From NCBI RefSeq assembly GCF_021134715.1, contig NC_060019.1, forward strand, positions 9,686,001 to 9,750,000: a stretch of DNA of 64,000 bases. The letters are read 5' to 3'. The DNA comes from Daphnia pulex. Taxonomy: Eukaryota > Arthropoda > Branchiopoda > Diplostraca > Daphniidae. The number at the start of each line of letters is the position of its first letter. Position 1 is the stretch's first letter. The notes under the pieces were generated by a model. It saw only the letters and a list, made by a program, of their open reading frames with translations, ran no database searches and was not told the origin of the DNA. Made by a program: the position numbers and the translations under genes. This document shows, piece after piece, positions 34,260 to 56,400 of this stretch.

Positions 34260-35925
34260 CACAATGTCCGTATAGAAATGAATAATAGAGGGAGAAATGG
34301 GACAATGGAACGACGGCCGATGGCACACCTGGAACCGAATTCTAGACTACTACTACAACAAAAACCGGGCCAGCAATAGTTGTATATATATAGCAGTCAC
34401 AAGTTTACCCCCTCACCTCTCTTCCTCGAGTTCCGTCTGTCCGGCCCACCCCCCGCTTGCGCCTCTCTCCCAACTTTCAACTAAAGAAGGGCGACGTTTG
34501 TTTCTTGTGCGCAGGTTAACTCGCGGCGCACGCGAGCTTCGATTTCCTATTAAGTGGCAAGCGCATTGCATGTGATTTATATTCGTTTGCTGGCGCTATA
34601 AATATTTTTGCGTGCTGCTCAGACTTGTGGCAGATTTCTAGATGTTTCACAGTTAAGGGAAATGCGGATTTACGGAATGTTCTAAAAGATCTGTTGAGCA
34701 GGATACCTTTCTTCTGTCGGGAATCATTTTACTAGCTTTCAACAAGGAATAATTAATTAAGGGGGAGAAAAGCTTTATTAAATTGTACTATTTTATAGCA
34801 ACGTATTACTGTCTTGCTTCCAGGTACTTCTCCTTTGACTATGCCTTACATTATTAATGATATTTTGAAATAAGATAAGTCACGCGATCCCAATAGGGGA
34901 GAGCAGCTACACCTAGCAAATTGACCCCACTGGCTCCCCACCTTCTTCCCCCTTCCTTTCGCCACTGAATAAAAATATGTTTCATTTTATATGTGACATG
35001 GGGACTGTTCGCTGGATCATCAGCAACTATAACACACCGCTATTTGCTTAAGTTGGAAAGATAGCGCGAGGCTTCGGGAAGCCATATTCAATATTAAAAC
35101 TGTCGGGTTGAAAGATTAAATGTGAAGGAAAGATAAAAAGAACTTGACAAACGTGACAGGAATATTCTCAGGTCCCTAAAAAGTTTTCCCATAAAGAAAA
35201 CGAATATTTTCCCAAAATAATGTTAATGGACTTCCTGTGATGAAAGGGATATTTTACTGCACTATTTCTGTCAAATTGAAGGGCAATTGATTTAAGAAAA
35301 ATGTACAGCAATTTATGACGATTAGTGCGAAACCAAGAAAGCTTAGCAGAAATCAAAATATGAAGAATTTAAGGCAAAATTGTTGACATAAAGACATGCT
35401 AATTGTTGTTGGTTTTATTAAGAATTATTATGACATTTCATTTTAAGTCAATACAATCTGTTCAAAGCTTGAAAAGTTCAGTGCTACCATTAGGTGGTCT
35501 AAAATAACTCAAGTAACTTTTGTGTTTTGTTTTATCCTTCTAGGAATTGCTCTCTGTGATTTGGCTTGAGTTACGTCATCGAACATTTATCTCGTCACCT
35601 GGTGGAGGTGGATAAAAGTATCTGTTGGAGTCCTTAGAGGCCCCTCCTAAAGGACTCTAGATGTCACTGCCGTTTTCTCCCGCAATAGCGATTGCTCTTG
35701 TTTAAAAAATTTCTTCACGGACCAATATTGTGTGAACATTTTTCCTTTGCTTCCAGCACTGTAGGCCCTAATGTAAATTAGTATGGCACGCCGAAAGGGT
35801 CACAAAAAAAAATTGTAAGAAAAAAAAATAAAAGTTTCTCCGCAACGCTATCTAGCGGTCAAATATATACTACATGCAAAAATTCCCTTTTCTTGCCCAA
35901 AAAGCAAAAACGCGGAAATTTTCTG
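34260..35925. other. Intergenic region, no gene seen
   Basis: Mixed-composition DNA with no long open frame. It includes an imperfect short inverted repeat around 35628-35662 and a CGCTATCTAGCGG motif near 35846-35858. The latter resembles the CGCTATCTGCTGG motif at the palindrome's inner ends. Confidence 0.5.
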
Positions 35926-36232
35926 GTTAGATCTATTGTCACGACATATGTCGTGGCGCGACGGTCAAAACTGTCTATTGTCACGACATCTGTCGTGGCA
36001 ATAAAGAGAAAATTGTCTATTGCCACGATACGCCTATACTTCCTCTCTGATCTCTCATATCGTGGCAATAACACGAATTTTGTCTATTGCCACGACATGC
36101 GTTTTCGTACTAAGTTCCACAGAAGATGTTTAGGAAAACTACTAATAGGGTAAAACTACACGTGCATAATTCGCGCATCATTTTTCTTGTCAATTATCCC
36201 GTGAAACTCAACCTTTGTTGTAATCTCCAAAT

Positions 36233-36316
36233 AAAAAATTACCCTCTCGACGGAGAATCGAACGCCATGCTATCGCATGGTGGCATTCATTGCTGACCAT
36301 TCAGCTACCACTGCTA
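36233..36316 (-). ncRNA. tRNA-like Pol III unit (degenerate tRNA or SINE head)
   Basis: On the minus strand TAGCTGAATGG (36307-36297) fits the Pol III A box and is bracketed by a perfect GCTG/CAGC D-stem. GTTCGATTC (36263-36255) fits the B box and sits in a T-arm with four of five pairs. A run of six T (36238-36233) follows as terminator. The acceptor stem does not pair and no clean anticodon arm forms, although CCATGC/GCATGG makes a perfect hairpin. It is therefore more likely a tRNA-derived SINE head or decayed tRNA than a working tRNA. Confidence 0.4.
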
Positions 36317-36345
36317 AAATTAAATTGTAAAAAACTTGACATGCA

Positions 36346-36414
36346 TAACCTAACCTAACCTAACCTAACCTAACCTAACCTAACCTAACCTAACCTAACC
36401 AAACCTAACCTAAC
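36346..36414. repeat. Interstitial telomere-type (TTAGG)n tract
   Basis: About 14 tandem TAACC units, the complement of the arthropod telomere repeat TTAGG, with one variant unit (an A for T) near the right end. The tract is internal, inside the loop of the foldback element, so it is not a chromosome end. Confidence 0.85.
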
Positions 36415-36599
36415 ATGCGTGAATGTCGAATTAAAAAAAAAAATTATGTCGTGGCAATAGACAATTTTCTCTTTATTGCCACGACAGATGTCGTGGCAAT
36501 AGACAGTTTCGACCGTCGCGCCACGACATCATGTCGTGGCAATAGATTTAACCAAACCAAATTTTCTCTGCCATAGTCGGACATTTAAAATATTTAAAT

Positions 36600-36910
36600 T
36601 CAATAGAGTTCTATTGTCGAACATGAAAATAATTAAAGGATTTATTGGAGTCTAGTAAGTTTATTAGTAGTTTATTAAATTCTAGAAAAACGTGGTCCTC
36701 TAAAATAGACTTTTATCGAGTTCTATTGTCGCGAAGTGGAGTTCTACTGTCGGGCACTGGAGTTCTATTGTCGGGTATTTTTAATAATATTTAAGCAAGG
36801 AGTTCTTATGTCTTTGGAGTTCTACTGTCGCATACAAAGAAATTTTTAAAAATTATTTGAAATATTTGAAATATTGGGGTTCTATTGTCGGTGGAGTTCT
36901 TCTGTCATTT
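36600..36910 (+). repeat. Array of GAGTTCTAYTGTCG motifs
   Basis: About eight irregularly spaced copies of a 12-15 bp motif, GGAGTTCTAYTGTCG, separated by A/T-rich spacers. The right-hand part, including an ACAAAGAAATTTT spacer, recurs at 44430-44545 in the palindrome spacer in the same order. This shows a dispersed repeat rather than local chance. Confidence 0.6.
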
Positions 36911-37369
36911 GGATTTTGGAGTTGGGTCATTGGGTCGCCATAACGACAGATTGTCCCCCCATCCGCCAGGTGACGCGAGTGTCTTCGTGAGGAACATGGT
37001 GAGGAAGAAATATTTGCCATTTGTTTCCGAGACGCTTGACTTAAAAGTGTATTCCAAATTCATTACGGAATTAAGGTGTCGATCTACATTTTCAGCCATT
37101 AAATGTAATTGGTAATGCTAGTTTGGATTTCTTAAATTCAATTAATCTTTGACGTCTCTGTCTGAATTTACAGGCAATCTGGCATATAATTTCATTTGGC
37201 CAAATATAAAATATGATGACGTGGGTCGAAACTGCTGTCCATTTTGTCGAAATGTCGGCAAATGACCAAATGTTAGCTGTACGTCTCATCTCGTGCAGAA
37301 ACACTTCAGAGCTAGCAAAGTAATATTGTTGATCAGTCTCTCTGCAACAGTGCAATAGGTTTGATTTTC

Positions 37370-37545
37370 AGGTCAGAGATGGAGATCCCTTTGCTCAACT
37401 GTTGCAGAAATTTAGAACACAACAAAGTCTGAGCTTCATGGCTGTTGTATCATTAATGTGGTTTTGTTGCAGCCAGCTGGTGGAAAGTGTGATGGGAGTC
37501 CTGTTGAGCTGCAGCCGCTGCATGCAGTTTATCGAGCTGGTGTTA
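37370..37545 (+). repeat. Diverged coding-like repeat, left-flank copy
   Basis: Reads GDPFAQLLQ...TQQSLSFMAVV after a TTTTCAG acceptor-like site. It matches the minus strand at 51990-51830 (GDPFACL...SQQSLSFIAV) with clear divergence. A weaker relative, NPDGTAQLQQ, lies in both palindrome arms (43686 and 46041). It is unrecognised, and may be a gene fragment or a transposon-derived exon that has been copied several times. Confidence 0.4.
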
Positions 37546-38454
37546 TCCCACGTGTCACTGCAGGAAAACTTCTTGAATTGGTAATTTGATTGATATTATT
37601 GGTTGTAACTTGGGAAGTCTTGTGTTTTTTTTTGTTTTTTTTTTTTAATTTTGCATTCAACTGACAAGTTTAACTCTTATGTGATGTAGAAAATTAAGGG
37701 TAACATTTCTTCCTTAATTGTTTCTTCAAAGATAGATGCATTGTTGGGCAGCTTTCATTGAGTTAACGATTTCCTTCCAATCAAACTAGAAAAAAAATTC
37801 CCATTAGTATTACCAAGTTTGTAACACATTAGAAGTATATGTACAGAATTCTTTTTTGTTTTCTTTTTCAATTTAAATTCATTGTTAATTTTAAATTAAG
37901 TAAATTTCATTTTGGTACCCATTTTCACATTTTAAAATGTTATTGTTACATTAATGTTCTTTTGCTTTGTAGGAGACTAGGAGTTCATGCCTTCATGGTC
38001 AGTTGGAGCGAGTTGGAGCTGTTTACGTTGTTGCTGTTTGGTGTCCAGTGGTTTTGCAGTCCCTTACCAGTTGAGAGATGCTCTGAAATGGAGTTTGTGC
38101 AGACTTGCAGTTCAACATCACACTTAAATGTAACATTTGTCTATGTTGGTGTCCATGCAGTGTTGAACGGTTGGGTAAAATAGTTCATGCTGCCTGATGG
38201 CTGTCGGTCTTATTTGATCGGTTGCATTTTTTCGATATGTCGTCCCTTGCTACCTGTATCGGCGTTTTGGTAATGCTTGATGTTTCGTTCAGTTATTGAC
38301 TTTAAATTAAAGTCTCTATTCTTTTTTCAGTTGAATCGTTTGCTGCCGTTCCATAGACTTGATCCATTGGTAACACTGACTGAGGAGAAGTTGCTGAAAT
38401 TCAAGACTAGTCGATAAATTATGTAGATGCTGTAGATAAATTACAAGTGCATAT
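37546..38454. other. Left flank of the palindrome, no gene seen
   Basis: T-rich DNA with one open frame (37839-38183) of unremarkable composition and no recognised domain. The last 50-60 bases before 38455 still resemble, with mismatches and small gaps, the mirror position beyond 51270. The boundary of the duplication is therefore gradual on this side. Confidence 0.45.
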
Positions 38455-38774
38455 CTGGGCTCCCTTCTTTTCTGTGGCCCCGTTTCCCTAAATAACCTCT
38501 AACCAACGCCCGCCGGTGGTCACTCACTGGCTGCGACAACCAGGAGGAAGGGAGATGTTTGGTCGAACGGGGACTTGGAAGGCGCATGATTCGATGAATT
38601 CTGTTGGAGGGTCATGAGTCTAAGCCGGAAGCCTACTATGATGCATTGCTCTCATAATAACTGCTCCTCAGCTCTCTTCGCTCTTTTTCCAGGTTCTCTT
38701 AAGTCTTAACCACGGCCGGGTAATCTCCCTGGTAGAGTCAGTCGGGCAGTGTCTCCCCCTGCTTGACTGGCTGC

Positions 38775-38940
38775 AGTTTGTACCGGACGGTTTGTTTAAT
38801 AAATAAAACGAGTATAAAAACCATAAAATGTTTTCATTTTATAAATTGTTATTCATTAATTAAATATAAATAGATAACAACTTGATTAACAAGCATATTT
38901 ATATAACATTGTTTATTAAACAGACCGTCCGATACAAACT
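38775..38940. mobile_element. 166 bp TIR (MITE-like) element, left-arm copy
   Basis: Both ends carry an inverted repeat of about 29 bp beginning AGTTTGTAYCGGACGGTY and running into TGTTTAATAAA. The internal part is A/T-rich and non-coding. No convincing target-site duplication is seen. It is a small non-autonomous DNA-transposon-like element. Confidence 0.6.
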
Positions 38941-40136
38941 CTTAGTTAGTACTATTGCTCAAAAACTGATTCTCTTGAATCAGCAGACTCGAGAGTTTAT
39001 AGCGCCGTCAAGGTAGATATTTCTGAATGGTACCCGTCTTGTCAACTGCTAATGATTCGTGTTCTTGGTTTGACAGAAGCTGTGTTGTGTGTGTTGATCG
39101 TCTCCACCATGCACGCGATAATCAAGACCAGCAACGTCTTGATCAAGAAGAAGAAAAGAACGGAGAAGCAAAGAACGACGATGCAAATAGCGGGGTGGGT
39201 ACCGCTAAATTCATTCTTAGTTGAATGTCGAATCGCTAATACCATTGTTGGTTATGGTAGAACAGTTTTCCACACTGGTACGCTGTATGACGTCGAGCAT
39301 TGCCAAAATTGAAGTGCTCTTTGAAGAACTGAGCGTCTAAATCTTCTTCAGTCAGATGAAGCTAACGGATTCGGAAATCGTCGAAGAAGCAGAGGACATC
39401 GCAGCTGAAAAAAAAAAAAACGTGAGTCAAACTCCTGTGGTTAAGTTCTGCAGCTACTCTCAACATATTTTGTCTTGTTTGCTCGTGTTGATTGTAGACT
39501 GCTTTTAAATTATCTATCAGGGAAGCCCTAATAAGAGGTCCAAGAGAAATTTATTCGGGTCAACTGATACCATGCCACGTACTAAATCGTTAATGGTTTT
39601 CAGATAAAAAATAACCATGGGAATATGGGGTCGCAGAAATAGATGTCACTGGTGGAAAATAAGAAGGTGATATGGTATTTTTCTTTTCTACTGTCTGATT
39701 TTTAAAGATTTGGTGAGGAACATCCAATCTGTCGATCGCGGTCGCTAACCAATTGTTAGAAAAACAGCACCAATAATGGTAAGAAGGTGTGCTGTGAAGT
39801 GGCGTGATAATTTTAATCATGGACATTCAGGTTTCATTTCGTGATTTGTCAGGTCGAGCTCGGATGTGCTTTATTCGAGATTTTAACACAAATTGCATTT
39901 TATACGTAAAAAAATTTATCATAAAGCTACAATGTTACAGCATTACCCGTACTATGGCTCGTCCCGGTTTGTATTGCTTTGTATAATCTTTAGTTGAACG
40001 CTAAATATATTAGAGGCTAGCTAAGAGAATTTGGCTAGATCTTTACAAGATTAGTGAATGTGATATTTTAAAGAAATTGCGTCTGTTGCACTAACATTTA
40101 GCTAATGATCTTGCATTCTTGACTACATATTTTCAG

Positions 40137-40260
40137 GCAACTTTTGAAGTTTTTGTGGGCACTGATGTGCAGAGTGCTCGTGACCAACAGATAAAATGGC
40201 CCAATCCATATTGCAAATTTGCAAGCTGTCTTCCAAAACCAAGGAATTTCTATTTGCAAG
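40137..40260 (+). CDS. Unidentified open exon, left-arm copy
   Basis: 124 bases fully open (ATFEVFVGTDVQSARD... to ...PRNFYLQ), bounded by TTTTCAG upstream and GTAATT downstream, with ordinary protein-like composition. Other coding-like pieces lie upstream in the arm, at 39085-39224 (rich in Glu/Lys/Asp) and 39356-39420 (MKLTDSEIVEEAED, ending near a GTGAGT donor), but I could not chain them into one phase-consistent gene. Function unknown. An identical copy lies at 49590-49467 on the other strand. Confidence 0.3.
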
Positions 40261-40404
40261 GTAATTATTTCAGCCAGCAATGTTTCTTTTAATTACTGTG
40301 GTAATAATTCAAGATGATGAAGTCTAATTAGGTAGAAATTAACCTTCCTGAAAAGTTTAGGAGCCATTGTTAATTTCAATTGGTGTAAAGTGAGTTTTAA
40401 GCCA

Positions 40405-40860
40405 TAATCATTTGGTATTAATTTTTATATTGGTTGTTGTAGAACCATTCCAATCCCTAGCAACGTAAACCTGCAGAAGGAAAGGCACGTAAAACTTGTC
40501 ATGCAGTGGTGTAGAGGTTGGGTGAGAACGGGATGTGTTACATAACCATTTGGTATTCATTTTGAATTTTGATATTGGTTGTTGTAGACCCACCCCCATC
40601 TCGCCCCCAGCAACGACAACCTGCAAAAGGAAAGGCACGTAAAACTTGTCAAAAAGAGGTTGGGTGAGAACGGGATGTTTTACTGTTTAGTTACATAACC
40701 ATTTTCATTTTGATATTGGTTGTTGTAGACCCATCCCCAGAAACTTCAACCTGCAAAAGGAAAGGGCAGTCCGCCTGTCCTTCACATTCGAAGGTCACGG
40801 AGATCATTACATGAAACGTGTCATGCAGTGGTGTAGAGGCTGGGTGAGAACGGGACGTGT
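40405..40860 (+). repeat. Three-unit tandem repeat, left-arm copy
   Basis: Three imperfect units of about 135-150 bp share GATATTGGTTGTTGTAG, AACCTGCARAAGGAAAGG, CACGTAAAACTTGTC and GGGTGAGAACGGGA blocks. The array ends about 60 bp before the TATA box of the first tyrosine-rich gene, so it could be promoter-proximal sequence. Confidence 0.6.
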
Positions 40861-40924
40861 TTCATCATTTTCAAGCAGCTACAATAGCCGCAAGGCTTAA
40901 GAGGTGAGGGTGATCAAAAAATCG

Positions 40925-40963
40925 TATAAAAGGAGAGAGAAAAGGCGAAGGTAAATCAGTCGA
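40925..40963 (+). promoter_or_regulatory. TATA box and initiator of the first tyrosine-rich gene
   Basis: TATAAAAG at 40925-40932 stands 33 bases before the A of TCAGTC (40956-40961), standard arthropod TATA/Inr spacing. The ATG of the first tyrosine-rich gene is 61 bases further on. An identical promoter is mirrored in the right arm at about 48764-48802. Confidence 0.65.
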
Positions 40964-41018
40964 GGGAGCATCTCCGACACGGCAACAACTGCAGCGCTCT
41001 GTCTGTCAGTTCGCATCC

Positions 41019-41945
41019 ATGGGTAAATATTCTGTCTTTTACATAGAGTTTGGTATCAATCCTTCTTTTGATTTTGTATGCTTGTTATTATGTAGAATTT
41101 ATGTTAAAATTTATAATTGTCTAGCAAACTATGGCGTAGTGCTGCTGTTGTGTGTTGAATCATTGTGGCTGGGTCGACCACTGGTGTACCGATGTCTTCT
41201 TGGTATGGCGGATACCAAACCGCAACGCCACCGCCTTACTACCCTAAAGTAACTTACGCAACGACCAGTTCCTGCACCGAGGTCTTCAAGTACTACACCA
41301 CTAAAGCACCGGACTTGAATAGCACAACTTACGCTACCCCGAGCCACTACACTGACGCCCTGAAGTATTACTCTGCCCCGAGTTACTACACCACCAAGGC
41401 GACGGAGGATGACTACGCATGCTGCCCCATCCTCCGAGGCTCATACACCGAGGCTCCTAAGTATTGCTGTGTTCTCATCTACTTATTGCACCGATTTTCC
41501 TAAATACTACTCTGTTCCCAGCTGCTACACCGAGGCTCCCGCCGATTACCACACCGAAGCTTCAAAGTACTACTCTGCCCCGATCTACATAACTGAGGCG
41601 GCCAATTATTACGCTGTCCCGACTTGCTGCACAGAAGCTGCTCTTTCGTACTACGTTGAAAAGAAATACTACACTGATGCTCCAGTTCACTACACCAAGA
41701 CCTACGCTACACCGCAGCCCCCAAGTACTACACCGGAGAAGCCGCCTACAACAACGTATGCTGCTTAGTTTACTACAGCGAGGCTCCCAAGTACTACATC
41801 ACTAAGGCACCGGAATTCTGCACGTCTATGTATGCTACCCCCTGCCTACTACAACGAGGCCCCGCATTACTACAACACTGAAGCGCTCAAGTACTACAAT
41901 ACAACCTGCGTTTCCCCGAGCTACTACACCGTGCGTAAAAGGAGT
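41019..41945 (+). pseudogene. Tyrosine/threonine-rich repeat protein, decayed, copy 1 left
   Basis: Exon 1 is only ATGG before a GTAAAT donor (41019-41022). Exon 2 begins at 41125 and would start a signal peptide (NYGVVLLLC). The main frame then reads tandem YYT-rich motifs such as KYYTTKAP, HYTDALKYYSAPSYYT and TEAPADYHTEASKYY. Such motifs typify a tyrosine-rich secreted family, probably structural (cuticle or extracellular matrix), that I associate with Daphnia. The signal-peptide frame does not match the repeat frame, a second frameshift lies near 41470, and a stop occurs at 41766 while repeat sequence continues to about 41940. The promoter still looks intact. It is most likely a pseudogene; unusual splicing cannot be excluded. 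Confidence 0.6.
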
Positions 41946-42021
41946 CTTCAAAAAAAAAAGAAGTGCCCGAACTGCAGTGCCCTCTGTCACCAACTGCTTT
42001 CCTCGTAACCGATTCGCAATT

Positions 42022-42947
42022 ATGGGTAAATATTCTTATTTTTATATTAGTTTTGTATCAATTATATTTTTTTCTATTTGTTAATATGCCTGTTAATATT
42101 TAATATTAATGTTTCAATTTATTTACTGTTTAGTGAACTATTGCGTCGTGCTCCTGTGTGTTGTAGCTGTCGTTGATGGCTGAGTCGACTGCTGGTGTAG
42201 CGATGTCTCCTTGGTATGGCGGAAACCAAACCGTAACGCCGCCGCCTTCCTACTCAACTTACGCAACGACCACTTCCTGCACCGATGTCTTCAAGTACTA
42301 CACCACCAAACCACGGGAGTTTTATACCACAACTTACACTGCCCCGAGCCACTACACTGATGCCCTGAAGTATTACTCTGCCCTGAGTTACTACACCATC
42401 TAGGCGACGGATGACACCACATGACTACGTATATTGCCTATCCTACTACACGAGGCTTCTAAGTATAACTCTGTTCTCAGCTACTTATTGCACCGATTTT
42501 CCTAAATACTATTCCGTTCCCAGCTGCTATACCGAGGCTCCCGCTGATGTCTCCACCAAGACGGTCGAATACTACACTGAAGCGACAAAGTACTACTCTG
42601 CCCCGATCTACATAACCACAACTGAGGCGGCCAAGTATTACGCAGTCCCGACTTGCTACACCAAAGCTGCTCTTTCGTGCTGCGTCGAACAGAATTACTA
42701 CATTGATGCTCCAGTCTACTACACCACGACCTACACCTAGCTACAACACCGCAGACCCCAAGCACTACACCGAAGAAGGCGTCCATACACAACTACGTAC
42801 GCTGCCTAGTTTACTACATCGAGGAATTTAAGTATTACTCTCCTCCAAACTACTACCAAACTGAGTTTCATATGTATTACATCAGCAATTCTCCCCACCT
42901 TGTCACCACTATTTACGCTACTCCGAGCTATATACCGAATTTCTAAA
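42022..42947 (+). pseudogene. Tyrosine/threonine-rich repeat protein, decayed, copy 2 left
   Basis: Same layout as its upstream neighbour: ATGG exon with a GTAAAT donor, intron of about 110 bp, exon 2 from 42134 encoding NYCVVLLCVVAVV. A TGA then interrupts the signal-peptide frame. The repeat frame (SPWYGGNQ..., FKYYTTKPREFYTTTY) has a TAG at about 42401 where copy 1 has a lysine codon. Two further frame changes follow. The two genes are tandem paralogues made before the palindrome formed, since both occur in both arms. Confidence 0.6.
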
Positions 42948-44388
42948 GTATTTTTTTGATGTGTTGAAAGATTGTTGAAATACAAGATTGATTCATAAAT
43001 CACAATTGCATGTCTATTTTCTCTTAAGTACCTTTCCTCCTGCTGATCATTGCATGATGTGAGAAAATATTTTTGAGTGCTGTGTAAACTTACAAAATAA
43101 TCGATCTTGCAAAATACAACAATAAAAATTCTAACTCTTCATAAATATATCAACTTCTTTTTATAAATTTTTTTCTATCATTAAAATTCAAAGACCAACA
43201 CAAATTTTTCTAAAAATCCAAAGTCCCACCACCTATTTTTCTGCTAAGTCCAGACTTTTGTTTTTGAAAAAAAATTTAAAAAAATTCCCCTTACACAAAG
43301 TTTTAAAAAAATTATCGCGAAAAAATTTAACTCGAATATTTTATTGTATGCAAAATTTATTTTAATAATATTCATACATCATATACATTTTTACTGTGGC
43401 CCCCAGGGGGGGGGGCCTGTCGCTTTCTCTACCGCGATAATAACATGATGCAAGTTATATGCAAGTTATTATTTGTTTGGTGCAGAAAGCTTGTTTTATC
43501 TAGCAGTTCTCGACTGTTTCAAACCTGACATTGATCAGGTTGCCTCAGTCGTATACTGCATGATTGAATGAAAACTCAAAAGACATCATCAAACTTTTAA
43601 CGCAGCAACACAAAATATCAATGGCAGAGCAATTTCATACGGCATGGATGAAAACAACAAAACAAAAATTTTTGAAGTCAGGAACCCAGATGGAACAGCT
43701 CAGCTACAACAGCACAGCAACTTCTGGATTACACTGCAATCGCATTCAGCATACAACGGTGCAATCTGTCTTTGTCACACCCTTCACCATTTGGCTGCGT
43801 CTTTGTCACACCTTTCACCATTTGGCTGCAACAAGGTAACCACCAGCATTCGTTTTACCTGTTTAAGAAAAGAAAATTATTTTCGAGAAAAACAACTGTG
43901 TACACATTATAACAAAAGAATACAAAGAGTGACAGAAAACTACGCAGTCCAACAGAATAACTTTGGTATCTGATTCAAAATTTCTCTAGTTAACTAAATC
44001 TGTAGTACTTTTGCAAGACATTTGATCAAAATAATTACTTTTTACTGTTGAATGGGGTGAGACGTAAGCCAAAGAACAGGCAGCGAGACACACGAGGCAC
44101 GCCATTTCGGAAATGTACAGGCACTTCCCAAGTCTGAGTTGAATGATTTGACAAATTGGTTTCTACATGCCAAATCACCTGTAAATTTTCACATCAACAT
44201 TTTACATTCAATACCAATAGGAAATTAACAATAAATACCTTTTAATTTTCATCGTGAGAAACGTCACAACCAACAACCCTTTTCTTCTGCGTCTTGGATC
44301 AAAATGGCCGCTAAGGGAAGCGTCCCTGAAGACACTCGCGCTATCTGCTGGACATCATACAGCCACTTATTCAATGCCACCTATTGAC
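42948..44388. other. Inner part of left arm
   Basis: Non-coding A/T-rich DNA, then an open segment (43564-43973) containing NPDGTAQLQQ, a relative of the flank repeats, and a 33 bp direct duplication (CTTTGTCACACC...CACCATTTGGCTGC, twice at about 43770-43830). The innermost 100 bp carry a CGCTATCTGCTGG motif. The same sequence is mirrored at 45339-46779. Confidence 0.5.
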
Positions 44389-45338
44389 AGCCATTAGACT
44401 CCTGTTCCAAATGACTGAACGCAACGGCTTTGAGTTCTACTATCGTTTGAGTTCTACTGTCGCACACAAAGAAATTTTAAAAATTATTTAAAATATTGTG
44501 GTTCTATTGTCGATGGAGTTCTTCAGTCTTTTGACTTTTGAGTTGTACGGTAGCCATATCAAAGTAAATTGCGTTATGGACTTGGGGTGTCAGAGGTGTC
44601 CAATAAGATGGCGTTTCATGTGATGGCGGCTTGTTGTGTCAGTGGTTGTCAAAAGCTTTCCTGTTTTTCCATGAAAATTACCGATGAATTCATCAGTAAA
44701 TTCAAGTTCTTTTCTGTGCAACTTGTTTGCGATGGGATTTATTCTGATGTGTGCTGGATCAAATTAAAAATTCCTCAATCTAACCTGCATGAAGGAACGG
44801 GAAAGGACAGTAGCATACAAGCAACCTACCATCACTACCACCAACTCTTTTATTAAAAATCTTCGTTCTGCTGAATGCATCATGCAGTCAAAACAGGTAA
44901 AAACAATAATGTCTTAGTCACAATTTTTTAAAATACTTGTTCCCTTACTTAGTTAATATTCGTCTAATTATCAGCAGTTTCTATTGATCTTGGTAGGTCA
45001 CTACCCCAGTGTGGACATGTTTGTTTTTCTGAACATGTTTTTCAACAAACAATTCATTGATGTACACGTATTATTCTTCTCTCAAAATATCATTTCATCT
45101 AGGCCATGGGTAATCTTCAGGTCTTTGCAGCAGCTTAAGAGAAGAATATGAACAAATGCAGGGCAACTTACCAACATGTGTTGTATTTTTCTGAATGTTA
45201 AACACGAGCAGTAGGTAGCCATTAACTTTAGTTTATTGGATGAATGTTGGAATATTTATTGACATATTTCCTTTAGATTCAACATGACTAACTGTTGGAT
45301 GCCAAAGTTAGTTGGAACTCAACTCACTGTACATACTC
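44389..45338. other. 950 bp single-copy spacer at the centre of the palindrome
   Basis: Sequence between the two arms with no inverted counterpart. It begins with an array related to 36710-36925 (GTTCTAYTGTCG motifs at 44430-44530). It holds one open frame (from about 44608) beginning with MAFHVMAACCVSGCQ that I cannot assign. No transposase or integrase is seen. Confidence 0.6.
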
Positions 45339-46779
45339 GTCAATAGGTGGCATTGAATAAGTGGCTGTATGATGTCCAGCAGATAGCGCGAGTGTCTTCA
45401 GGGACGCTTCCCTTAGCGGCCATTTTGATCCAAGACGCAGAAGAAAAGGGTTGTTGGTTGTGACGTTTCTCACGATGAAAATTAAAAGGTATTTATTGTT
45501 AATTTCCTATTGGTATTGAATGTAAAATGTTGATGTGAAAATTTACAGGTGATTTGGCATGTAGAAACCAATTTGTCAAATCATTCAACTCAGACTTGGG
45601 AAGTGCCTGTACATTTCCGAAATGGCGTGCCTCGTGTGTCTCGCTGCCTGTTCTTTGGCTTACGTCTCACCCCATTCAACAGTAAAAAGTAATTATTTTG
45701 ATCAAATGTCTTGCAAAAGTACTACAGATTTAGTTAACTAGAGAAATTTTGAATCAGATACCAAAGTTATTCTGTTGGACTGCGTAGTTTTCTGTCACTC
45801 TTTGTATTCTTTTGTTATAATGTGTACACAGTTGTTTTTCTCGAAAATAATTTTCTTTTCTTAAACAGGTAAAACGAATGCTGGTGGTTACCTTGTTGCA
45901 GCCAAATGGTGAAAGGTGTGACAAAGACGCAGCCAAATGGTGAAGGGTGTGACAAAGACAGATTGCACCGTTGTATGCTGAATGCGATTGCAGTGTAATC
46001 CAGAAGTTGCTGTGCTGTTGTAGCTGAGCTGTTCCATCTGGGTTCCTGACTTCAAAAATTTTTGTTTTGTTGTTTTCATCCATGCCGTATGAAATTGCTC
46101 TGCCATTGATATTTTGTGTTGCTGCGTTAAAAGTTTGATGATGTCTTTTGAGTTTTCATTCAATCATGCAGTATACGACTGAGGCAACCTGATCAATGTC
46201 AGGTTTGAAACAGTCGAGAACTGCTAGATAAAACAAGCTTTCTGCACCAAACAAATAATAACTTGCATATAACTTGCATCATGTTATTATCGCGGTAGAG
46301 AAAGCGACAGGCCCCCCCCCCTGGGGGCCACAGTAAAAATGTATATGATGTATGAATATTATTAAAATAAATTTTGCATACAATAAAATATTCGAGTTAA
46401 ATTTTTTCGCGATAATTTTTTTAAAACTTTGTGTAAGGGGAATTTTTTTAAATTTTTTTTCAAAAACAAAAGTCTGGACTTAGCAGAAAAATAGGTGGTG
46501 GGACTTTGGATTTTTAGAAAAATTTGTGTTGGTCTTTGAATTTTAATGATAGAAAAAAATTTATAAAAAGAAGTTGATATATTTATGAAGAGTTAGAATT
46601 TTTATTGTTGTATTTTGCAAGATCGATTATTTTGTAAGTTTACACAGCACTCAAAAATATTTTCTCACATCATGCAATGATCAGCAGGAGGAAAGGTACT
46701 TAAGAGAAAATAGACATGCAATTGTGATTTATGAATCAATCTTGTATTTCAACAATCTTTCAACACATCAAAAAAATAC

Positions 46780-47705
46780 TTTAGAAATTCGGTATATAGC
46801 TCGGAGTAGCGTAAATAGTGGTGACAAGGTGGGGAGAATTGCTGATGTAATACATATGAAACTCAGTTTGGTAGTAGTTTGGAGGAGAGTAATACTTAAA
46901 TTCCTCGATGTAGTAAACTAGGCAGCGTACGTAGTTGTGTATGGACGCCTTCTTCGGTGTAGTGCTTGGGGTCTGCGGTGTTGTAGCTAGGTGTAGGTCG
47001 TGGTGTAGTAGACTGGAGCATCAATGTAGTAATTCTGTTCGACGCAGCACGAAAGAGCAGCTTTGGTGTAGCAAGTCGGGACTGCGTAATACTTGGCCGC
47101 CTCAGTTGTGGTTATGTAGATCGGGGCAGAGTAGTACTTTGTCGCTTCAGTGTAGTATTCGACCGTCTTGGTGGAGACATCAGCGGGAGCCTCGGTATAG
47201 CAGCTGGGAACGGAATAGTATTTAGGAAAATCGGTGCAATAAGTAGCTGAGAACAGAGTTATACTTAGAAGCCTCGTGTAGTAGGATAGGCAATATACGT
47301 AGTCATGTGGTGTCATCCGTCGCCTAGATGGTGTAGTAACTCAGGGCAGAGTAATACTTCAGGGCATCAGTGTAGTGGCTCGGGGCAGTGTAAGTTGTGG
47401 TATAAAACTCCCGTGGTTTGGTGGTGTAGTACTTGAAGACATCGGTGCAGGAAGTGGTCGTTGCGTAAGTTGAGTAGGAAGGCGGCGGCGTTACGGTTTG
47501 GTTTCCGCCATACCAAGGAGACATCGCTACACCAGCAGTCGACTCAGCCATCAACGACAGCTACAACACACAGGAGCACGACGCAATAGTTCACTAAACA
47601 GTAAATAAATTGAAACATTAATATTAAATATTAACAGGCATATTAACAAATAGAAAAAAATATAATTGATACAAAACTAATATAAAAATAAGAATATTTA
47701 CCCAT
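46780..47705 (-). pseudogene. Tyrosine/threonine-rich repeat protein, decayed, copy 2 right
   Basis: Mirror image of 42022-42947 with the same stops and frameshifts (TGA after the signal peptide, in-frame TAG in the repeat region). The shared lesions show that decay preceded the duplication or was spread by gene conversion. Confidence 0.6.
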
Positions 47706-47781
47706 AATTGCGAATCGGTTACGAGGAAAGCAGTTGGTGACAGAGGGCACTGCAGTTCGGGCACTTCTTTTTTTTTTGAAG

Positions 47782-48708
47782 ACTCCTTTTACGCACGGTG
47801 TAGTAGCTCGGGGAAACGCAGGTTGTATTGTAGTACTTGAGCGCTTCAGTGTTGTAGTAATGCGGGGCCTCGTTGTAGTAGGCAGGGGGTAGCATACATA
47901 GACGTGCAGAATTCCGGTGCCTTAGTGATGTAGTACTTGGGAGCCTCGCTGTAGTAAACTAAGCAGCATACGTTGTTGTAGGCGGCTTCTCCGGTGTAGT
48001 ACTTGGGGGCTGCGGTGTAGCGTAGGTCTTGGTGTAGTGAACTGGAGCATCAGTGTAGTATTTCTTTTCAACGTAGTACGAAAGAGCAGCTTCTGTGCAG
48101 CAAGTCGGGACAGCGTAATAATTGGCCGCCTCAGTTATGTAGATCGGGGCAGAGTAGTACTTTGAAGCTTCGGTGTGGTAATCGGCGGGAGCCTCGGTGT
48201 AGCAGCTGGGAACAGAGTAGTATTTAGGAAAATCGGTGCAATAAGTAGATGAGAACACAGCAATACTTAGGAGCCTCGGTGTATGAGCCTCGGAGGATGG
48301 GGCAGCATGCGTAGTCATCCTCCGTCGCCTTGGTGGTGTAGTAACTCGGGGCAGAGTAATACTTCAGGGCGTCAGTGTAGTGGCTCGGGGTAGCGTAAGT
48401 TGTGCTATTCAAGTCCGGTGCTTTAGTGGTGTAGTACTTGAAGACCTCGGTGCAGGAACTGGTCGTTGCGTAAGTTACTTTAGGGTAGTAAGGCGGTGGC
48501 GTTGCGGTTTGGTATCCGCCATACCAAGAAGACATCGGTACACCAGTGGTCGACCCAGCCACAATGATTCAACACACAACAGCAGCACTACGCCATAGTT
48601 TGCTAGACAATTATAAATTTTAACATAAATTCTACATAATAACAAGCATACAAAATCAAAAGAAGGATTGATACCAAACTCTATGTAAAAGACAGAATAT
48701 TTACCCAT
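47782..48708 (-). pseudogene. Tyrosine/threonine-rich repeat protein, decayed, copy 1 right
   Basis: Mirror image of 41019-41945, with identical predicted peptides and the same frame breaks. Its TATA/Inr promoter is mirrored at about 48764-48802. Confidence 0.6.
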
Positions 48709-48866
48709 GGATGCGAACTGACAGACAGAGCGCTGCAGTTGTTGCCGTGTCGGAGATGCTCCCTCGACTGATTTACCTTCGCCTTTTCTCTCTCCTTTTA
48801 TACGATTTTTTGATCACCCTCACCTCTTAAGCCTTGCGGCTATTGTAGCTGCTTGAAAATGATGAA

Positions 48867-49322
48867 ACACGTCCCGTTCTCACCCAGCCTCTACACCACT
48901 GCATGACACGTTTCATGTAATGATCTCCGTGACCTTCGAATGTGAAGGACAGGCGGACTGCCCTTTCCTTTTGCAGGTTGAAGTTTCTGGGGATGGGTCT
49001 ACAACAACCAATATCAAAATGAAAATGGTTATGTAACTAAACAGTAAAACATCCCGTTCTCACCCAACCTCTTTTTGACAAGTTTTACGTGCCTTTCCTT
49101 TTGCAGGTTGTCGTTGCTGGGGGCGAGATGGGGGTGGGTCTACAACAACCAATATCAAAATTCAAAATGAATACCAAATGGTTATGTAACACATCCCGTT
49201 CTCACCCAACCTCTACACCACTGCATGACAAGTTTTACGTGCCTTTCCTTCTGCAGGTTTACGTTGCTAGGGATTGGAATGGTTCTACAACAACCAATAT
49301 AAAAATTAATACCAAATGATTA
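48867..49322 (-). repeat. Three-unit tandem repeat, right-arm copy
   Basis: Inverted copy of 40405-40860, with the same three units in the same condition. Confidence 0.6.
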
Positions 49323-49466
49323 TGGCTTAAAACTCACTTTACACCAATTGAAATTAACAATGGCTCCTAAACTTTTCAGGAAGGTTAATTTCTACCTAAT
49401 TAGACTTCATCATCTTGAATTATTACCACAGTAATTAAAAGAAACATTGCTGGCTGAAATAATTAC

Positions 49467-49590
49467 CTTGCAAATAGAAATTCCTTGGTTTTGGAAGACA
49501 GCTTGCAAATTTGCAATATGGATTGGGCCATTTTATCTGTTGGTCACGAGCACTCTGCACATCAGTGCCCACAAAAACTTCAAAAGTTGC
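49467..49590 (-). CDS. Unidentified open exon, right-arm copy
   Basis: Inverted copy of the exon at 40137-40260, with both splice sites preserved and an identical predicted peptide. Function unknown. Confidence 0.3.
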
Positions 49591-50784
49591 CTGAAAATAT
49601 GTAGTCAAGAATGCAAGATCATTAGCTAAATGTTAGTGCAACAGACGCAATTTCTTTAAAATATCACATTCACTAATCTTGTAAAGATCTAGCCAAATTC
49701 TCTTAGCTAGCCTCTAATATATTTAGCGTTCAACTAAAGATTATACAAAGCAATACAAACCGGGACGAGCCATAGTACGGGTAATGCTGTAACATTGTAG
49801 CTTTATGATAAATTTTTTTACGTATAAAATGCAATTTGTGTTAAAATCTCGAATAAAGCACATCCGAGCTCGACCTGACAAATCACGAAATGAAACCTGA
49901 ATGTCCATGATTAAAATTATCACGCCACTTCACAGCACACCTTCTTACCATTATTGGTGCTGTTTTTCTAACAATTGGTTAGCGACCGCGATCGACAGAT
50001 TGGATGTTCCTCACCAAATCTTTAAAAATCAGACAGTAGAAAAGAAAAATACCATATCACCTTCTTATTTTCCACCAGTGACATCTATTTCTGCGACCCC
50101 ATATTCCCATGGTTATTTTTTATCTGAAAACCATTAACGATTTAGTACGTGGCATGGTATCAGTTGACCCGAATAAATTTCTCTTGGACCTCTTATTAGG
50201 GCTTCCCTGATAGATAATTTAAAAGCAGTCTACAATCAACACGAGCAAACAAGACAAAATATGTTGAGAGTAGCTGCAGAACTTAACCACAGGAGTTTGA
50301 CTCACGTTTTTTTTTTTCAGCTGCGATGTCCTCTGCTTCTTCGACGATTTCCGAATCCGTTAGCTTCATCTGACTGAAGAAGATTTAGACGCTCAGTTCT
50401 TCAAAGAGCACTTCAATTTTGGCAATGCTCGACGTCATACAGCGTACCAGTGTGGAAAACTGTTCTACCATAACCAACAATGGTATTAGCGATTCGACAT
50501 TCAACTAAGAATGAATTTAGCGGTACCCACCCCGCTATTTGCATCGTCGTTCTTTGCTTCTCCGTTCTTTTCTTCTTCTTGATCAAGACGTTGCTGGTCT
50601 TGATTATCGCGTGCATGGTGGAGACGATCAACACACACAACACAGCTTCTGTCAAACCAAGAACACGAATCATTAGCAGTTGACAAGACGGGTACCATTC
50701 AGAAATATCTACCTTGACGGCGCTATAAACTCTCGAGTCTGCTGATTCAAGAGAATCAGTTTTTGAGCAATAGTACTAACTAAG

Positions 50785-50950
50785 AGTTTGTATCGGACGG
50801 TCTGTTTAATAAACAATGTTATATAAATATGCTTGTTAATCAAGTTGTTATCTATTTATATTTAATTAATGAATAACAATTTATAAAATGAAAACATTTT
50901 ATGGTTTTTATACTCGTTTTATTTATTAAACAAACCGTCCGGTACAAACT
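50785..50950. mobile_element. 166 bp TIR (MITE-like) element, right-arm copy
   Basis: Inverted copy of 38775-38940 with the same terminal repeats. It was carried along with the arm rather than inserted independently, since its position is the exact mirror. Confidence 0.6.
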
Positions 50951-51270
50951 GCAGCCAGTCAAGCAGGGGGAGACACTGCCCGACTGACTCTACCAGGGAG
51001 ATTACCCGGCCGTGGTTAAGACTTAAGAGAACCTGGAAAAAGAGCGAAGAGAGCTGAGGAGCAGTTATTATGAGAGCAATGCATCATAGTAGGCTTCCGG
51101 CTTAGACTCATGACCCTCCAACAGATTTCATCGAATCATGCGCCTTCCAAGTCCCCGTTCGACCAAACATCTCCCTTCCTCCTGGTTGTCGCAGCCAGTG
51201 AGTGACCACCGGCGGGCGTTGGTTAGAGGTTATTTAGGGAAACGGGGCCACAGAAAAGAAGGGAGCCCAG

Positions 51271-53371
51271 AAATGCACTTGCAATCTAATCTAACATCTA
51301 CACAATTTATCAGTCTCTCGTCAGCTTTCACCAATGGATGAAGTCGGGTCCAGTGGATGATCAGTAGCGAAGAGTTACCCTGTAAGCAGAATGAACATTT
51401 ATTTGGATGACAATAATTTTAAATAAGATTTTAGCGACAGCAAGCAATACCTCAATTAAGAGGGTCCGTTTAAGGAAGTAAAAAGGGAGATTCACAGGTA
51501 GCAGTTAACGGGTTTTCAAACATGGGACCTTGTTGACTGTGTAGTCGTCGTCCTTCTTCAAACGATATGACTTCTCATAAGGTCTGGTATGCAAATTTAG
51601 AGAGATGTAGTTTAGACCCTGCAAATATATAAAAAAAAGAAAGGCATCTTGTTTATAATTTCTTGTTAATGTGCTTGACGTCTAAAATGATCTAAAAGAT
51701 TAATTTAACAGTTATTAGTATACACTTCACATAGTCGCTTTAATAGATGCAAATTAATACTTTTAACACTCACAAGTGAACAACACACTTTAATTAGCTT
51801 CAGCCTAGACTGACACATTGAGAACACTTCAGGATGACATCACCGCTACAGACTGCTTGCAGCAGCTGCAGCTCAACTTGAACTCCTTTTTCACCGGGTG
51901 GTTGCAATGAAACCATCTGCATGACAGCAATGAAGCTCAGACTTTGTTGTGATCTCAAATTATTTGATAGACAAGCAAATGGATCTCCCACCTGAACATA
52001 AACTAATAAAATATATTGCATTATAGCAGGGAAATTAATCAACAAATTTAAATTTACAGTGTACAAGAATGCAATTAGAACCAATAGCTAAATTATGTTG
52101 TAATTGTTATTAATTAAAAACAGTTAAACTTACCTCAAAATCCTAATCTAAATTTGTTTTGCTTTTTGGAAGTAGCTTAAGAGGTGTATTGTGTAACTTA
52201 GGAGCAGCGAAGTTTCCCAAGAGGATTCTATCTAGTAGGGCATTTAGCCCAGACCCAGACAAAGCTGTCGCATTCCTATGCTGCTCACTAATCATCAATG
52301 GCCATCGAACCTAATTAGAAGAAAGAAAGATTAATCACAGGTAAGGCTCAGTTCAGAATGACAGGACTAAAGCTAAAAGGGTGATACGTAGAGGTAGCTC
52401 GACGATATTTCGTCAACAATCTGGAATCACTAACAGTAACAGATGAGACACAAAAGCGAATGTCATGCTGCCTTCCTCTCATTGTAGAAGCAATGGGGGG
52501 ATTTCGTCTGTTGTGATGTGCTGTGATGCTGCGGTGGTGAATTTTTCATTTTTGGGTGAAGACGAGATACAAATTGAAAGGGGAGAATATTATGTGAGTA
52601 TCAAAGTCTTTGATTGTTAGTTATTCTTGCAATTGAGTGTCAACCAGGGTGTAGAGCGGACATTTTTTTCATGTTACTGTTAAACGTTTCTTTTTTGTGG
52701 CGCTAATAACATAACTTACAGATAATCTGTGATGATAGAGGTAATGGATAATAGATAATAAGATGATGGAGAATTCCTACAGCGTCGCTTCACCAATATC
52801 ACCATAGTCTCTATCAGTCTATCACTCTGCCAAAGTGCCCCGATCACTCACTAAGCGGCGCCTTATTCGACTTACCCACCCACCCCCCGACTGCTCGTCG
52901 TTTTCTATCAGGGAAATAACAGCAACGTTGTATTTTAGAAAAACATTGTCTGCTAGGGCTAGGGCGGCTAGCTCACCTAGCTGACAAAGACAAACAGCAG
53001 TTGACTGTTGTCATTTAGCAATGGAATGTCGTTATTTTTTGGAGTTCATTTTCTTATCTGGATAAAAAATGAATGGAGGAATACAGCTGCAAGGCTGAAA
53101 AATTTTCCAAGATGCCCAATCCTTTTAGAATCATTACTACTAGTCTACTACTACCTCTGATAGGAATTCAGAAGCATAAGCGAGCATAAGTTGCACCGGT
53201 GGTTAAAATCATATCAACCTGTTTTCAACAATGGGTTAGGAGAAATTGTAACAAGTTTAATTACATTTCATAGCTGAGAATATTGCTAATATGGCTGTCA
53301 TCATCAAAGAAGCTATTTCTGGCTGCAATTTGGGTACTGTCAGATTGTTCAACAATGGAATGAGTTACACA
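51271..53371. other. Right flank of the palindrome to IFT88
   Basis: Mostly non-coding A/T-rich sequence. The only feature recognised is the diverged coding-like repeat at 51830-51990 on the minus strand. No gene supported. Confidence 0.5.
51830..51990 (-). repeat. Diverged coding-like repeat, right-flank copy
   Basis: Minus strand reads VGDPFACL...SQQSLSFIAVMQM after a TTCAG acceptor-like site, homologous to the plus strand at 37370-37545. The two copies are inverted relative to each other, like the arms, but much more diverged. Confidence 0.4.
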
Positions 53372-53445: not shown

Positions 53446-56400
53446 ATGGATAAGTATAACATGGAAACGTATGATGAAGATGATCTTTATTCTGGATTCA
53501 ATGAATTTCATCCTACACTGAACACATCTAGCCTCATTCAAGACTCCCTATCTAGAGATGTTAAAAACCAGCAGTCAATGCTACAGATGCAGGTAATGTT
53601 AACAAGACTATGTAAAATGTCTCAGCGGTTTTATTCATTTGTTTAGTGGTACATTAATAAGATTTCCAAATATCAATTTTCATTTATTTATCATCAATTG
53701 CACTTGATATTAGCAATCAAGAGTGGTTACAGCATCTCGTGGTGGGGTTCCAACTGCAGTTGCCAGACCAGTAACTGCAATTCGTGGAGCAGGATATACT
53801 TCATCAAGATTGGCAACAGCCAGTCAGGTCTACGATCCTTTGAATCAATCTGGCAGGGTTACAACACCATTTTCAGAACCTAAAGCTGTTGATCCGTATG
53901 TAGCTTTTGTTGTCAACCCAAACTTATTACACAAAATTCATTATAATCTTACACAGGCCAGAAAAGCAGATGAAAATGCTGGAAAGTAGCATACAACAAA
54001 TTATAGAAGAATCAATTGTGGCTCACAGTAAAGAGGAATTTAGAGTGGCACTAGACAAGGCCAAAGAAGCGGTCAATAAAGAACGAAGTCTTATACGTCA
54101 AAAGGAGCAATCCGGCATGGGGGAATCGAATAGCGACCTCGCTTTCATGGTAATTACGATCTGCGCCTTGATTTGCTTTAAAAAATTTGCTATTCCATGT
54201 TTTTTACTAATACGAAGAATTTTCGAATAAACAGGTGCTGTTCAACCTAGCGAATCAGTACGTCGGTAACGGACTGTTTTCAGAAGCCATGTCGTCCTAT
54301 CAGCAGCTAATTAAAAATCGTTCTTTCGCCAACATCGGTCGACTGCGACTCAATACCGCCAATTTACATTTTCGTCTGGGACAGTACGCGCTCTCACTCA
54401 AGCAGTATCGAATGGCTTTAGATCAAGTTCCGGCTCACTTTACAACATTAAGGTAGTGTAAATGGCTGTAATAACATTTTCATTATTTGTTTTAGAACTA
54501 ATTCTCGATTACTCTTGCTAAACGAATTCCTTATTAGGACGAAAATAATGCAGAACATTGGCTTGCTGTTTATCAAAATGGGGCAGTACAACGACGCCTG
54601 TACGAGCTTCGAATTTGTTATGCAAGAAAAGCCCGACTTCAAAACTGGTAAGTCAATTTCAAATTGGTTTAAATTTATTGCTTTACCCTTTTTCCTGATG
54701 CCAAAACGTCAAACATTCAAAGGTTTACACATGGTGCTCAGCTACTACGCCTTGGCAGATCGGGAAAATATGCGCAAATCGTTCCTTCGCTTGCTGGACG
54801 TTCGTGCCGAGTCGGACGATTTTGATAAACTGGTGCCGGAGGTTAATAAGATGCTCTGCCTCATTCTCAATTTGAATAATCTCGTGTGCTCAGTTCTGTT
54901 GTTTTGTTTATTTTTCTTCTTCCCCCTCTCCTGGATAAATGATGTTTGCACAGGGTGACGCCCAGTGGAATTCGTTGCGTGAAGCGTTGAATAACGATTC
55001 GTTACACCGTTTGGAGCGTCAGGCCAAATTTGAAGGTGAAAGGTGCATATTGATGGCCGCCAAGTTAATCTCGCCTGTGATCGAAGATACTTTTAGTGTT
55101 GGCTACCAGTGGTAAGTTGTATAATTTATTCAAATCCGTCGTGGGGGGATGTTTGATAAATAACAATGATTTATGTCCAGGTGCGTCGAGGCCATCAAAG
55201 AGTCAACCCACAATCATCTGGCAGACGATTTGGAGATCAATAAAGCCGTACTCTTTCTACGCCAAAAGGACGTGGCCCTGGCTACCGAAACGCTGAGGAG
55301 CTTTGAAAAACGATCCAGCAGAATGGCTACCAACGCAGCTGTCAACCTGTCGACAATTTATTACCTAGTACGTTCAACGCCTACTGCATAAATTTACACA
55401 ATCGTAAACTAATTCCGTTTTTTTCTTTTCTTTTTCTATTTTTTTACTAACGATATGATTCAGCAAGGTGACATAGCCAGCGCTGAAAAATACGCCGAAG
55501 TGGCTAGAGATTCGGATCCTTACAATGCGGCCGCCTTCGTCTGCTTAGGCAATTGTTCACTCCGCCGAGCGGATTACAATAAAGCTCGCGATTTTTTCCT
55601 TTTCGCTTTGGATAATGACGCTGCTTGTGTGGAAGCCCTGTACAATCTCGGTAAAGAAAAAATGACGCATTCAATTCAATCTGGTCCGTTTTCCTAAAGA
55701 ATGGGTATGACAATTTGAACGTGCAGGTCTGACGTACAGATCAACAAACCAACTTGAAAAAAGCCTGGAACAATTTGTCAAACTGCAGATGGTCCTGCGT
55801 CATCAGCCCGAAGTTCTTTTCCAGGTCGCCAGTCTCAACGAGGAGCTCGGCAACGACGAACAAGCGATTGAATGGTGGACATTATTTTGAATGCCTAAAT
55901 CTTTTGGAAAGCCTCTGAATTGAAAAAGTCTTTTGTCCAGGTATTTGCAGGTCCATACGGTCGTGCCGTCCGACGAAGGCGTTCACCAGAAACTAGGCGA
56001 AACGTTCGATCGCCTAGGAGACAGGCAACAGGCTTTCCAATATTATTCAGATGTAATTTAGGTTACGGCTGCTATGCATCGACCACACAGTCTCAACTTT
56101 GAATAATGTAAAAACTTGTTTTTTTTTAAATATTTTATTTTACAGTCCTATCGTCACTACCCGTCGAATTTGGAAGTCATTCGCTGGTTGGCGGCCTATT
56201 TCACGGAGATGCATGTCCCTGAGAAAGCCATTGCCCTGTACGAACGTGCCGGACAAATGCGACCCAACGAAGCTCAGTGGCCCTTGGCAGTGGCGAGCTG
56301 CACTCAGCGAGTTGGAAACTACCATAAAGCGCTGCAGATTTTGAAGAGCACTCGCTCCAAGTTCCCCGAGAATATCGAGTGTAATATGCGTGTTTTACCA

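Follow-up and report, generated by a model that had tools for sequence, protein, structure and literature searches.

A large palindrome in Daphnia pulex is one of a dispersed family whose arms appear to be homogenised by gene conversion

The 64,000 nucleotides of Daphnia pulex DNA analysed here (the window) contain a real palindrome of about 13 kb, and this palindrome is one member of a family of large palindromes dispersed across the genome. Comparison of sequences within and between the copies makes it very likely that the members of this family are old palindromes, homogenised by gene conversion from arm to arm.

BLASTN of the window against itself aligns a left arm of ~5.98 kb (38413..44388, + strand) with the inverted right arm (45339..51311, - strand) over 5977 columns at 99.816% identity (E 0.0). 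The alignment contains 6 mismatches and 3 gap openings, and chance does not produce an inverted match of 6 kb at such identity. Realignment with MAFFT gives 10 substitutions and 2 indels. The near-perfect inverted arms reported in a preliminary description of this DNA are confirmed by the self-BLASTN match, and we find the inner edges (44388/44389 and 45338/45339) and the 950-bp spacer between the arms (44389..45338, +) as given there; the autosomal-looking, eukaryotic setting that it proposed also fits. Inside 38455-51270 the description had noted one substitution and one 2-base length difference, and these are present at 38599 and 39420. All 10 arm-to-arm substitutions lie in an edge zone at 38421..38599; nine of them, with a 1-base indel, fall at 38421-38453, outside the earlier bounds. 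From 38600 to 44388 there are 0 substitutions between the arms, and the 2-base indel is the single difference.

The search for relatives covered one genome assembly (133.19 Mb, 13 contigs). With the best 150 of 1219 candidates scored, and 150 of 161 matches listed, a protein query returned at least 150 hits in at least 56 loci, so some partner arms may be missing from these counts. Among the listed matches, 26 of the 56 loci, on 10 contigs, carry both strands, head-to-head in all 26, while 30 show a single strand only; identical scores were obtained for 38 of the 44 same-range pairs listed. Ten other loci, selected for their paired look from about 15 paired loci, were fully read, and every one is a giant palindrome, with arms 97.4-99.9% alike. 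Besides the eleven fully read loci, 16 more have mirrored protein hits among the listed matches. Copies of the family are numerous and dispersed, and their long inverted arms measure ~4-9 kb; arm length, spacer and flanks vary among them.

An arm core present in all 11 fully read loci (40900..44360 in the window, +) was used for comparisons. In the window it shows 0 differences in 3461 sites from the core of the right arm (45367..48827, -). Arms of the same locus are 99.68-100% identical over the core in 11 of 11 loci, against a mean of 92.6% (range 90.0-98.0%; 220 comparisons) for arms of different loci, and in a tree of the 22 arms every left arm pairs with the right arm of its own locus, nine pairings being forks at 100/99-100 and two being identical pairs. 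Across the 11 loci, 341 locus-private substitutions are found in both arms and 16 in one; the exception is C2_4.05, the sole locus with more private changes in one arm (8) than in both (6). Of the 219 arm-to-arm substitutions, 205 lie in the fifth of the arm nearest the spacer or the fifth farthest from it, with the counts for the inner fifth inflated because arm bounds were partly set by hand. GC-biased conversion was not detected in a comparison of arms with spacer (Fisher p = 0.42).

The spacer had been described as unique; it is a portion of a dispersed repeat, with 84 matching pieces genome-wide. An open-frame remnant within it (44614..44853, +) also has 84 matches across the genome, many of them containing stops, and it matches no Pfam family. 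It is homologous to seven other centres, in comparison with which the window is without ~0.3 kb beside the right arm, and spacers of related loci differ from it by 9-16%. Loci C1_5.23 and C5_8.30 have a spacer in common, in opposite orientation, and spacers are likewise common to C1_4.44 and C7_11.2 and to C12_9.82 and C2_1.22. Since the spacer is homologous across loci, the plan of arm, spacer and reversed arm predates the divergence of the copies. Seven spacer-bearing loci, not selected for paired arms, were viewed over ~3.2 kb each: inner arms are 100% alike in L033 and L034, 97.1% in L032, 96.7% in L030 and 89.6% in L031, and within the stretch viewed L037 has one arm and L038 none, with no inverted arm pair in either. 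In L033 the identity of the arms extends for a further 68 bp inside the spacer, at a place where the right end is of a different kind in L031, L032 and L034, and this extension shows an apparent copied tract. Relative to the window, L030 is 90.8% alike in the spacer and 82.9% in the inner arm; this unequal divergence may reflect a reshuffling of arms and spacers among loci.

A plan common to copies that have diverged by up to 18%, yet with arms nearly or wholly identical within each of the 11 copies read, points to copying of one arm onto the other. The preliminary description had listed arm-to-arm conversion as one explanation, and the family-wide identity, the spacers, the tree, the private changes and the edges all support it. 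Copying would happen in situ at each locus, through homologous recombination between the inverted arms of a chromatid folded back on itself, or of sisters, which in the absence of a crossover would amount to gene conversion. Tracts would rarely extend to the arm ends, so that differences collect near the edges and the sequence lying farthest out diverges, as in an inverted pair at 37326..37548 (+) and 51832..52045 (-) that is 70% alike (E 1.9e-24; the lowest E in 50 control comparisons was 1.9e-5) and that we read as probable older arm sequence beyond the reach of conversion. The earlier outer edges do not limit the repeated sequence, as relatives match the left flank of the window out to 36949; this outward continuation of the left arm (36949..38412, +) is common to relatives, and the right side here is not near-identical to it. 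The right flank (51312..52058) comes from another repeat subfamily, with matches to C1 (51200-52174, 87%) and C12 (51200-52058, 84%). Outside the left arm lies spacer-like sequence found by self-BLAST (36718..36924, +), of which 36800-36924 is 80.8% identical to 44432-44545 in the spacer.

Two broken genes of the YTEAPKYY-repeat kind lie in the left arm (+), at 41010..41783 (approximate bounds, taken from the direct repeat) and 42013..42824; they form a direct repeat at 78.5%, and self-BLAST places their mirror copies in the right arm (-) at 47944..48717 and 46903..47714, respectively. In two segments each, pN/pS is 0.64 and 1.24 for the first gene and 0.49 and 0.76 for the second, 13 stops occur across the four segments, and a single open frame over either gene, with frames read without introns, was found in no locus listed; to judge from their sequences, the arm genes look like pseudogenes. 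Divergence along the core is 5-12% per 200 bases. That the arms are identical because selection acts on their genes was rejected in view of these pN/pS values (0.49-1.24), the 13 stops and the lack of a conserved stretch in the core. As the genes look broken and no core stretch stands out, the arms are probably homogenised as a side effect of the palindromic structure rather than to protect genes. No Pfam family scored over the cut-off in ten arm frames and eight spacer or flank frames, one frame (54515-54955) lying outside the palindrome. With no Rfam match at the gathering score and no tRNA found, a functional RNA was rejected as the identity of the palindrome. For the 191-aa repeat frame in L027, no relative with a solved structure was found.

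The lack of any difference between the cores in the window is what would result if each locus had undergone its own very recent inverted duplication, but this explanation is highly improbable: diverged loci have homologous spacers and inner ends, diverged inverted homology is present outside the arms, and one locus after another would have had to rebuild its second arm at an identical position. A very recent event at the window locus alone, as raised in the preliminary description, is not supported, given a plan and spacer common to loci whose spacers are 9-16% different from that of the window. That description had also raised an assembly artefact, in which false inverted copies come from collapsed repeats or from long reads that are chimeric or folded back; foldback artefacts of long reads are indeed known, as mentioned in PMC12870357. 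We regard such an artefact as scarcely credible here, because eleven fully read loci of one family share homologous centres and have arm differences at the edges that are their own, 16 more are mirrored among the listed protein matches, left and right flanks are unlike, and L037 and L038 show a single arm and no arm, respectively, over the stretch viewed.

A less improbable alternative, although still an unlikely one, is a family of foldback-type DNA transposons with very long inverted arms that has picked up host genes, the identity of the arms coming from recent jumps or from arm copying in transposition. A short motif of the CACCAGGTAGCGCGAGTGTCTTC type lies by the inner end of the left arm (44328..44350, -) and of the right arm (45377..45399, +), with an inverted copy near the outer limit of the sequence that continues the left arm (36964..36986, +); its 21-base core occurs at 166 places genome-wide at <=2 mismatches, the reversed pattern at 0. 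These inverted motifs near inner and outer arm ends are in favour of an element, as are the dispersal of copies over 10 contigs, the pseudogene-like cargo, the existence of spacers without arms, and the end of the relatives' similarity to the window at 36949-36960, <=15 bases outside the outer motif, like the end of an element. However, none of the 11 loci has the outer motif (<=4 mismatches) on both sides, 4 having it on a single side and 7 on neither; several loci have flanks that by eye are alike for some tens of bases past it, and the outer ends of the palindromes have no common sequence. Target-site duplications were not found at the palindrome ends, where direct words in 30-bp flanks reach <=7 bp (no shuffled control; one of the 22 ends was cut), and no Pfam transposase was found among the 18 frames scanned in the arm, spacer and flanks. 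The outer arm of C5_8.30 fully matches only its own two arms, other matches being partial, and recent jumps alone fail to explain private changes in both arms with unlike edges. A foldback transposon as the route of spreading is nevertheless compatible with conversion, and the copies may have spread by segmental duplication, ectopic recombination or a foldback-like mobile phase. We give little credence to a further reading, that the palindromes are selfish units spreading as self-complementary hairpins, one arm being rebuilt from the other at each copying, so that the mirror form itself would be inherited with neither fixed ends nor an enzyme of their own.

The copying of one palindrome arm onto the other is best known from human sex chromosomes, and most work on gene conversion in palindromes concerns a small number of sex-chromosome cases whose genes are important. 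The present family provides eleven copies that were fully read, out of what are probably more than 26, spread over many chromosomes and carrying seemingly dead genes, with arm lengths, spacers and flanks that vary. It makes it possible to ask what governs conversion rate, tract ends and bias, and whether a large palindrome can endure when its genes are under no selection. In the middle three fifths of the arms (~35.1 kb) there are 14 substitutions. Combined with the D. pulex mutation rates quoted in PMC12926508 (2.30-4.53e-9), and with equilibrium assumed, this gives a rough estimate of ~1-2e-5 conversions per site per generation, of roughly the same order as the loss-of-heterozygosity rates quoted in that source (6.47e-6 for D. 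pulex, 2.62e-5 for D. obtusa). These observations are relevant to assembly and mutation work in Daphnia.

An earlier description of this family was not found in the literature searched, a weak result as subscription journals lay mostly outside the search. Two-strand loci lie on 10 contigs and not on a sex-limited or non-recombining chromosome, unlike ampliconic palindromes of the sex-chromosome type. Arms of Y palindromes are longer than those of the Daphnia family. The likeness to human and ape sex-chromosome palindromes is that inverted arms are >99% alike and, according to the accounts consulted (PMC3723533, PMC8981503), kept so by arm-to-arm gene conversion; the Daphnia family differs in its presence on 10 of 13 contigs, its pseudogene-like contents and the lack of detected GC bias. 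With the foldback-like transposons Tm1, Tetris and Galileo, as portrayed in the sources consulted, it has in common dispersed copies, long inverted arms and internal repeats, but two-sided common ends, target-site duplication and transposase were not found in it. Palindromes also occur in other parthenogenetic invertebrates, the rotifer Adineta vaga (PMC7953838) and the springtail Folsomia candida (PMC5490193); D. pulex, for want of an annotation, was left out of the palindrome screen described in PMC7953838. As presented in these two papers, those palindromes are blocks of gene order, unlike the Daphnia family, and for F. candida the authors, faced with widely varying Ks, stated that concerted evolution is no explanation (PMC5490193), whereas in the Daphnia family concerted evolution is strong.

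The preliminary description had claimed a near-perfect palindrome here, and this was borne out: positions 38413-44388 match 51311-45339 in inverted orientation at 99.816% over 5977 columns, around a spacer of 950 bp. Between 38600 and 44388 the left arm shows no substitution relative to the right arm and a single 2-base indel, at 39420; the remaining differences, 10 substitutions and a 1-base indel, all lie within 38421-38599 (BLAST sets these edge differences somewhat otherwise, with 6 mismatches and 3 gap openings). Outside the arms, beyond sequence that is not alignable, an inverted pair (37326-37548 with 52045-51832) persists at 70%, with an E-value of 1.9e-24; the best of 50 control comparisons made elsewhere in the window gave 1.9e-5.

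Searches of the genome (133,188,837 bases in 13 contigs, the window being 9686001-9750000 of contig C3) with pieces of the arms yielded many scattered copies, many of them as a plus followed by a minus copy with the inner ends facing. Ten of about fifteen paired-looking loci were fetched for full reading, and all ten proved palindromic; identity in the main inverted match ranges from 97.4% to 99.9% and is lowest in C2_3.81, where the match runs through the centre; as these loci were picked as paired, the palindromic share of the ten is uninformative on the family. Sampling without choice for pairing was provided by a protein query (the best 150 of 161 matches; 150 of 1219 candidates scored), for which the 150 matches listed group into 56 loci. 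Among these matches, both strands occur in 26 of the 56 loci, on 10 contigs, with plus left of minus in all 26 and the reverse order in none; 30 loci show one strand only, and scores are identical in 38 of the 44 pairs having the same query range and scores at most 5 bits apart. Ten of the 26 two-strand loci belong to the 11 fully read (the window palindrome and its ten fetched relatives), C1_5.23 being absent from the 26, and the other 16 are known only by mirrored hits, some also by their centres.

Across the core, the arm section at 40900-44360 present in all 11 fully read loci, between 0 and 11 differences separate the left from the right arm of a locus (99.68-100%, 11 of 11 loci); cores of different loci are 90.0-98.0% alike, with a mean of 92.6% in 220 comparisons. 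Both arms of a locus cluster together in the tree of 22 arms for all 11 loci. Private changes, scored in gap-free columns with all other loci agreeing, are shared by both arms of the locus in 341 cases and confined to one arm in 16, the exception being C2_4.05, with 6 shared and 8 confined to one arm. Of 219 between-arm substitutions, 205 fall in the end fifths, 97 outermost and 108 innermost, although part of the inner count represents a small unlike spacer, since in four loci with the palindrome running through the centre the inner bound was placed by hand near the midpoint; for C1_5.23 the inner 3.3 kb alone was used.

The spacers are likewise homologous between loci, as seen in shared pairs and in an alignment of eight centres including that of the window, which lacks roughly 0.3 kb adjoining its right arm. 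Among seven spacer-bearing relatives viewed over about 3.2 kb, spacer identity to the window is 84-86% for L031-L034 and 91% for L030, whose spacer and arm histories differ relative to the window; inner arms are 100% alike in L033 and L034, 97.1% in L032, 96.7% in L030 and 89.6% in L031. Judged from these alignments, the palindrome plan predates the divergence of the copies. Without arm-to-arm copying, the arms within a locus would be expected to be at least as different as the spacers, which argues for copying of one arm onto the other, whether in place or during movement. The edge differences favour copying in place, as does L033, where the 100% stretch reaches locus base 1554 (1486 in L031, L032 and L034) and the right end bears the letters of the left end; L031, L032 and L034 keep another sequence there. 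We consider it highly likely that these are old, dispersed palindromes held alike through arm-to-arm gene conversion. An inverted arm pair is absent, within the 3.2 kb viewed, from L037 and L038; as the spacer sequence of L038 (1230-2352) is armless and that of L037 (1276-2321) has one arm, spacer and arms are separable modules.

Each arm carries a tandem pair of frames with a high content of Y, T, A and P (for example YTEAPKYY); the two are 78% alike in the window. A single open frame spanning either arm gene was found in no locus of the frame listing, and frame changes recur, by eye, at similar positions across loci. Four segments of the arm genes gave pN/pS of 0.49-1.24 and 13 stops, the divergence profile along the core showed no conserved stretch, and none of 18 frames tested against Pfam matched a family over the cut-off. 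Read as intronless frames, the arm genes look like pseudogenes, though a weak coding function is conceivable. The likeness of the arms is probably owed to the palindrome structure alone.

Adjoining the palindrome, at a chromosome-internal position, is a TAACC array of 13.8 copies (36346-36414), which we take to be the arthropod telomere-type repeat. It is enclosed by the two members of an inverted repeat, each about 113 bases long (35916-36028 and 36449-36564; 93%, with 42-base units), and 35916-36564 looks like a small inverted-repeat element. To the right, many sites on contig C6 match 51200-51727, and several of them pair up in opposite orientation at a distance of about 4-6 kb, as C6:3529793- does with 3533662+, which suggests a second, shorter palindrome family. 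Between 8.7 and 12.9 Mb of C3 lie scattered copies matching 52064-52700 at 77-85%. Further away, an 823-aa open frame with a series of C2H2 zinc fingers (18768-21239, plus strand) presumably resembles the gap gene Kruppel; its matches among solved structures are other zinc-finger proteins.

A short motif is repeated near the inner and outer arm ends, and similarity of the relatives to the window ends at 36949-36960, at most 15 bases outside the outer motif copy (36964-36986), as would be expected for the end of an element. This outer motif is, however, one-sided in 4 of the 11 loci and on neither side in 7, and the flanks of several loci are, by eye, alike further out. The palindromes terminate at different sequences, with target-site duplications not found (a search with no shuffled control and one end cut), and the outer arm of C5_8.30 (2001 bases) is matched in full only by its own two arms, the next-best match being 528 bases at 90%. 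Although the family may have spread like a foldback transposon, we have not filed it as such.
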